Source of the DNA: Ignatzschineria sp. RMDPL8A
Lineage (GTDB): Bacteria; Pseudomonadota; Gammaproteobacteria; Cardiobacteriales; Wohlfahrtiimonadaceae
DNA: 64,000 nucleotides
Reading direction: 5' to 3'
NCBI RefSeq assembly: GCF_029815055.1
Contig: NZ_JAPPWA010000002.1
Span: forward strand, 1,612,001-1,676,000
Shown here: positions 5,808 through 6,573 of the stretch, in pieces
Layout: every line of letters begins with the position of its first letter
Position numbering within the stretch: the stretch's first letter is position 1
The notes under the pieces: generated by a model
Databases searched by the model: none
Told to the model about the DNA's origin: nothing
The model's input: the letters and a program-made list of their open reading frames with translations, nothing else
Program-made: the position numbers and the translations under genes

Positions 5808-6573
5808 TGCGTATCTCTACCCCATTCTCGTTTAAATATTGTTTTAATTCGCCAATGTGGACGATTTTTTTGTGAAAGGCCGATGCCCCGAGCGTACCTT
5901 CAACGCCTGCTTCTTTATAGGCCGCTAAAAAGTGTTCTTTCGCTCCGGCGCCGCCCGATGCTACAAGCGGTAATTGGCACACCGCTTTCACTTTTTTAAG
6001 TTGCTCAAGATCGTATCCCGAACGCACGCCATCTTGATTCATCATATTAAGCACGATTTCGCCAGCCCCGAGCTCTTCCACTTTTTGCACCCAATCAAGG
6101 GTACGCCACTCGGTTTCGTTCGTTTTGCTCTCATCGCCGGTTAAAGTGTACACAAAATAATCATTGCGCTTATCATCGAAATAGGAATCGATCCCGATCA
6201 CCACTTTATCGCGCCCAAAGGTGCGTGATAGTTCAGTAATAAGCGCGGGATTGGCTAGCGCGGGCGAATTGATTGAAATCTTCTGCGCGCCATTATCGAG
6301 CACCATCTGCGCGTCCTCAACAGATTTAATGCCTCCTGCGACACAAAGCGGTACATCGATAATTTCGGCCACTTGTTTAATCCACGATTTATCCACCACG
6401 CTATTTTCAGCAGAGGCAGCGATATCGTAAATCACGATCTCATCGGCTCCCTCTTCATTGTAGCGTGCGGCTAATTCTAGGATATCGCCCATGGTTTCGT
6501 GATCGCGAAACTGGGTCCCTTTAACGACTTTGCCATGCTTAACATCTAAACAGGCGATTATTTTTGCCAACAT
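5800..6573 (-). CDS. hisF: Imidazole glycerol phosphate synthase, cyclase subunit, with altered HisH interface
   Basis: Synthase half of IGP synthase. It converts PRFAR and ammonia to imidazole glycerol phosphate and AICAR in a (beta/alpha)8 barrel. Length 257, close to E. coli HisF, with the shared stretch [16 protein letters not shown]. The catalytic aspartates are present at residues 10 (CLDV) and 129 (GIDS). Oddity: the N-terminus reads [11 protein letters not shown] where HisF normally reads MLAKRII, so gate residue Arg5 is deleted. The usual GADK is GAQK at residues 95-98, replacing Asp98, which contacts the HisH glutaminase. The other gate residues (Glu45, Lys98, Glu172 here) remain. 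No hisH is in the operon. Overlaps hisA by 16 bases. Confidence 0.97.

Follow-up and report, generated by a model that had tools for sequence, protein, structure and literature searches.

The window, a stretch of 64,000 nucleotides, contains a his operon on the minus strand in the order hisG-hisD-hisC-hisB-hisA-hisF-hisIE (11729 to 5181), in which all genes score above their NCBIfam cut-offs. Residue positions given as Tm follow T. maritima HisF. The genes and features of the locus are:

5181..5807, minus strand: hisIE (NF002747, 289.5 bits)
5800..6573, minus strand: hisF, cyclase subunit of IGP synthase, 257 aa (TIGR00735, 316.8 bits against a cut-off of 294.55), in a genome without a HisH partner
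6205..6210, minus strand: Asp122-Lys123 codons of hisF, at Tm Gln123 and position 124; Gln and Cys are universal here in gammaproteobacterial HisH-positive HisF
6283..6285, minus strand: Gln97 codon of hisF, at the Tm Asp98 position; found in the window's own genus and Wohlfahrtiimonas only, Ignatzschineria having Asp
6559..6573, minus strand: codons for MLAKI, a HisF N-terminus one residue short in alignment with HisH-positive HisF
6558..7289, minus strand: hisA (TIGR00007, 268.7 bits)
7290..7338, minus strand: hisB-hisA junction, the site of the missing hisH; 49 bp, where Enterobacterales loci that carry hisH have about 590 bp
7339..8430, minus strand: hisB, bifunctional (NF003937, 591 bits)
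8442..9530, minus strand: hisC (TIGR01141, 360.7 bits)
9534..10829, minus strand: hisD (TIGR00069, 526.3 bits)
10836..11729, minus strand: hisG (TIGR00070, 192.2 bits)
11778..11895, minus strand: candidate histidine attenuator, with a leader peptide MKSTLHYHHFY (11894-11859) and a terminator-like hairpin with a T-run

The candidate attenuator scores 29.1 bits against Rfam RF00514 (His_leader), under the 49-bit gathering score, and none was found in the other genera of Wohlfahrtiimonadaceae. Two other identities for the window HisF were rejected: WbuZ (TIGR03572), at 216.1 bits against a cut-off of 299.7, and AglZ/HisF2 (NF038364), at 182.6 bits against a cut-off of 310. The (beta/alpha)8 barrel is kept in a predicted AF2 model (pLDDT 87.6, pTM 0.88), which has TM scores of 0.90 to HisF-LUCA (4evz), 0.88 to 1gpw_A and 0.86-0.90 across HisF structures.

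The preliminary description of this locus had proposed that hisH was lost from the operon, and the loss is borne out for the operon, for the whole genome and for every HisF-bearing genome of the family. hisH is absent from the hisB-hisA junction, and a HisH model gave no match in the window's genome (2.18 Mb, three contigs, 99.1% complete) while detecting HisH in 14/14 control genomes. The only class-I glutamine amidotransferase domain in the genome belongs to PyrG (CTP synthase), another weak match being a DJ-1/PfpI protein. There is therefore no related subunit (TrpG, PabA or CarA) to replace HisH, and no genome-encoded HisH glutaminase with which a glutamine-dependent HisFH heterodimer could form. 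A hidden or displaced hisH was ruled out by these same profile and domain searches, and tblastn for remnants in hisB-hisA gaps returned only short matches, mostly across the ends of hisB and hisA.

Among 18 Wohlfahrtiimonadaceae genomes HisF is present in 16, none of which has a HisH above the cut-off; these include the single-contig genomes G019 and G021 and the named relatives Wohlfahrtiimonas and Ignatzschineria. Contamination or bad assembly as the cause of the absence is rejected because three genera, single-contig genomes among them, agree. Every readable locus of the family has the order hisGDCB-A-F-IE, with a hisB-hisA gap of -4 to 198 bp, whereas the gap measures about 590 bp in loci that contain hisH. 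HisF-bearing relatives from other families of the order generally have HisH too; G013, from a different genus of the order, keeps hisH in the arrangement hisGDCB-H-A-F-IE. The genome scan yielded 76 further loci (from Enterobacterales, Vibrionaceae and other groups), and in 73 of these hisH lies inside the his operon. Evenly sampled gammaproteobacterial genomes that were at least 90% complete (n = 370) had HisF in 308 cases and HisH in 314. Comparison of the two lists by hand left a single HisF-positive, HisH-negative genome among the 308, that of the window itself. A search confined to the open-access literature turned up no earlier paper describing the lack of HisH in these genera. The use of ammonia alone by HisF is known elsewhere; its fixation across a whole family appears to be new.

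One further genome assigned to the family, G015 (80% complete), carries a HisH adjoining HisA on a 6.7-kb contig (G015:C113, locus L037), and no HisF was detected in that assembly. This HisH is either contamination or that of a basal family member, and G015 was left out of the count of HisH-less genomes. Gene arrangement varies in other respects as well. Among loci L076, L082, L114 and L054, hisF-hisIE is separate from hisGDCBHA in three Vibrio loci; L076 has lipoprotein-like (489 aa), permease-like and pyruvate formate-lyase-like ORFs upstream, L054 has a 404-aa ORF of unknown function between hisA and hisF, and HisF starts with GTG in both.

Fourteen non-redundant HisH-less HisF proteins of the family were compared with 111 HisH-positive gammaproteobacterial HisF (74 enteric-type, 37 other). 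The start one codon short and the GAQK motif at residues 95-98, both reported in the preliminary description, are confirmed in the window sequence and in the alignment, which places the missing residue between Lys4 and Ile6 and a Gln (codon 6285-6283) at Tm Asp98. Arg5, which we take to be a residue of the ammonia gate, is missing in 14/14 HisH-less proteins and in every Wohlfahrtiimonadaceae HisF with a covered N-terminus, and is kept in 111/111 HisH-positive ones. If the register of beta1 (IIACLD) is held fixed, however, a Lys would sit in the Arg5 slot, and the change can equally be described from the sequence as an N-terminus one residue shorter with Arg5 replaced by Lys. Asp98 is replaced by Gln in the window's own genus and in Wohlfahrtiimonas (6/14), is kept in Ignatzschineria (8/14), and is kept by essentially all of the HisH-positive proteins. 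With this conservation among the 111, chance is a poor explanation for either change, and a search for the same two changes among these HisH-keeping relatives found none. The expectation that both would track the absence of HisH thus holds for Arg5, perfectly, though within one clade and as a single event, but fails for Asp98, which eight of the 14 HisH-less proteins keep.

Other conserved residues have also gone. Gln123, presumably a residue of the HisF-HisH interface, is replaced by Asp, Glu or Ser in 14/14, Cys124 by Lys or Arg in 14/14, and Arg249 is lost in 13/14, the window protein being the one that retains it. Three of the four interface residues Arg5, Asp98, Gln123 and Arg249 are accordingly changed in the window HisF. 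In T. maritima, Asp98 touches Asn12 of HisH when the enzyme is in its active state (PMC8115485), Arg249 forms a hinge with HisH Trp123, and the E167A substitution in HisF weakens binding tenfold (PMC9032424). With literature-style loops, losses at otherwise universal positions number 12/28 at the HisH-facing end and 8/61 in the rest of the protein (Fisher p = 0.005); with boundaries taken from the predicted model they number 10/28 and 10/61 (p = 0.057), so the enrichment at the HisH face varies with the definition chosen for that face and is suggestive. The catalytic Asp residues, by contrast, were described as intact and prove so: Asp11 and Asp130 are invariant in 14/14, as are Lys19, Glu46, Lys99, Glu167 and Asp176.

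Loss of Arg5 and the neighbouring changes could be read as adaptive, having specifically opened the ammonia gate and bettered the capture of ammonia, as the preliminary description implied in speaking of an opened barrel. The role of Arg5 as a gate residue and the fixation of its loss across the family would fit this. The opening itself finds no support, since the catalytic residues and the remaining gate residues Glu46, Lys99 and Glu167 are all present in 14/14, and the place of Arg5 is possibly taken by Lys. Moreover, HisF proteins from other species lack such changes and, when isolated, still use ammonia in vitro (PMC11350729, PMC5919458), so the changes need not be adaptations, and relaxed constraint accounts for the pattern on its own. 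An adaptive opening of the gate is thus unlikely.

Alternatively, an unrelated and so far unrecognised glutaminase might dock on the altered face and feed HisF. It is the face that is altered, the whole protein not having degenerated, and the Lys at 124 (possibly also at 5) and the Asp or Glu at 123 that are conserved in the family could mark a new surface; glutamine would be available, as GlnA is present in the window's genome. A conserved docking site is nonetheless hard to reconcile with the face positions Pro197, Asp219 and Arg249, which vary freely within Wohlfahrtiimonadaceae. Nor does the operon contain an extra gene, and PyrG remains the sole class-I glutamine amidotransferase in the genome. 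We regard such a partner as improbable.

HisF is ordinarily the slowest-evolving His protein. Its distance relative to the mean of its operon neighbours is 0.48 (0.32-0.72; 1186 pairs) between HisH-positive genomes, as against 1.02 (0.84-1.34) between family and HisH-positive genomes and 1.12 between family members, a roughly twofold relative acceleration in the HisH-less family. No similar rise was seen in HisA, HisB, HisD, HisG or HisIE. The HisH-bearing relative G013 has an intermediate HisF rate of 0.75; some of the acceleration may thus be of earlier origin. Together with the lost contact residues, the loss of exceptional conservation upholds the earlier suggestion that the HisF interface has drifted, and the twofold rise suggests that much of the unusual conservation of HisF stems from its partner HisH. 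The HisH-less proteins form one clade with full support and a long stem; HisH loss and the residue changes consequently represent a single event with no statistical replicates.

Fusion of HisF to HisIE was considered as a source of the rate shift and rejected, unfused members being as fast or faster. Where the fusion occurs, hisF and hisIE form one open frame of 479-514 codons from stop to stop (L181 and L182 in Wohlfahrtiimonas; L186-L192, L042 and L043 in Ignatzschineria), and the two genes are unfused in the window's own genus and some family members. PMC1963479 lists five his fusions, and this one does not appear there.

Faster evolution could also reflect decay of the pathway, the strain without HisH being a histidine auxotroph and its HisF a drifting remnant. 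Biosynthesis has been trimmed elsewhere in the window's genome, from which CarA, CarB and GuaA are also missing. Against decay, hisF dN/dS within the family is 0.03-0.07, similar to that of the other his genes and indicative of purifying selection; the catalytic residues are invariant, HisF is kept in three genera, and the other his genes are all intact in each family member with a fully covered operon. Decay is accordingly a very improbable explanation. As a separate observation, CarB is missing in the window's own species and in one Ignatzschineria (G000, G016 and G019) and no CarA was seen in those genomes, which suggests that carbamoyl phosphate synthesis has been lost.

We therefore favour, with a probability of roughly 0.8, the reading that the window HisF is a natural IGP synthase that depends on ammonia, works independently of HisH and has a decayed docking face, as judged from sequence comparison. 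HisH is gone, its contact residues on HisF are lost, HisF evolves about twice as fast, and the pathway is complete and under selection; free ammonia is thus the most likely feed for HisF. In a common ancestor that the window's genus shares with Ignatzschineria and Wohlfahrtiimonas, hisH would have been lost cleanly from a his operon of enteric type that otherwise stayed intact, with HisF retaining its barrel, catalytic aspartates and substrate loop. IGP would then most likely be made from PRFAR and free ammonia diffusing in, ammonia being the probable substrate in vivo. Having no HisH with which to dock and signal, HisF would have come under relaxed constraint: the contacts of Arg5, Gln123, Arg249 and partly Asp98 would have disappeared, presumably after HisH itself, and the rate of HisF would have climbed to the level seen in the other His proteins. 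This sequence of events does not require the gate to have been opened in a directed way.

Such chemistry has precedents. Isolated HisF converts PRFAR and ammonium salts into IGP at basic pH (PMC11350729), and high NH4+ rescues Klebsiella hisH mutants (PMC5919458). A C. glutamicum delta-hisH strain is prototrophic for histidine, and C. glutamicum HisF complements E. coli hisH (PMC3896937). Ammonia has also been proposed as the substitute in Blochmanniella with hisH pseudogenes (PMC12779916). The family presumably occupies an ammonia-rich niche. The absence of AmtB was considered as a mark of such a niche and set aside as unspecific, since HisH-bearing Cardiobacteriales also lack AmtB; GlnA is present in the window's genome, and neither finding settles the ecology.

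HisF is one of three synthases without glutaminase subunits in the window's genome, which contains TrpE and PabB and lacks TrpG and PabA. TrpE lies with a trpD-CF-B-A cluster at positions 727799-734000 of contig C2 (loci L208 and L201); in this trpD-CF-B-A-E cluster TrpE and TrpD score over curated cut-offs, the others being named by sequence and position. PabB, also over its cut-off, lies at 587718-588791 of the same contig (locus L202) and belongs to the short subfamily NF005486, for which PabA may be dispensable elsewhere too. TrpE and PabB likewise occur without partners in Ignatzschineria G019, whereas Wohlfahrtiimonas retains a TrpG/PabA-type subunit beside PabB. Conceivably, and we put this forward tentatively as something close to an open bet, the window's genus has moved off glutamine, keeping HisF, TrpE and PabB while shedding HisH, TrpG and PabA, so that ammonia would feed histidine, tryptophan and folate synthesis through remodelled synthases.

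HisFH is the textbook example of two enzymes that channel ammonia and communicate allosterically. A lineage without HisH is a natural experiment that can separate the HisF residues serving HisH from those serving catalysis, and it raises the question of when organisms in nature can do without glutamine channelling; that TrpG and PabA are missing in parallel hints at a broader move to free ammonia.

In its HisF barrel, its catalytic aspartates, its substrate loop and the setting of its operon, the present family matches the HisF-HisH IGP synthases of T. maritima and E. coli; it differs from them in having no HisH, in having lost the Arg5, Gln123 and mostly the Arg249 contacts, and in having lost Asp98 in part. 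WbuZ and HisF2-type cyclases are also HisF-like barrels, but the window HisF falls under both of their cut-offs and is housed in a full his operon. In Corynebacterium glutamicum the ammonia-fed step is likewise thought to run on HisF in vivo (PMC3896937); HisH is still encoded there, whereas here it is absent throughout a bacterial family. A further parallel is found in the hisH pseudogenes of Blochmanniella (PMC12779916), where hisH is lost and the pathway is thought to continue on ammonia. There, however, the gene has decayed in some endosymbiont lineages, while in Wohlfahrtiimonadaceae the loss is clean and family-wide, in larger genomes, and is accompanied by a shift in the rate of HisF.
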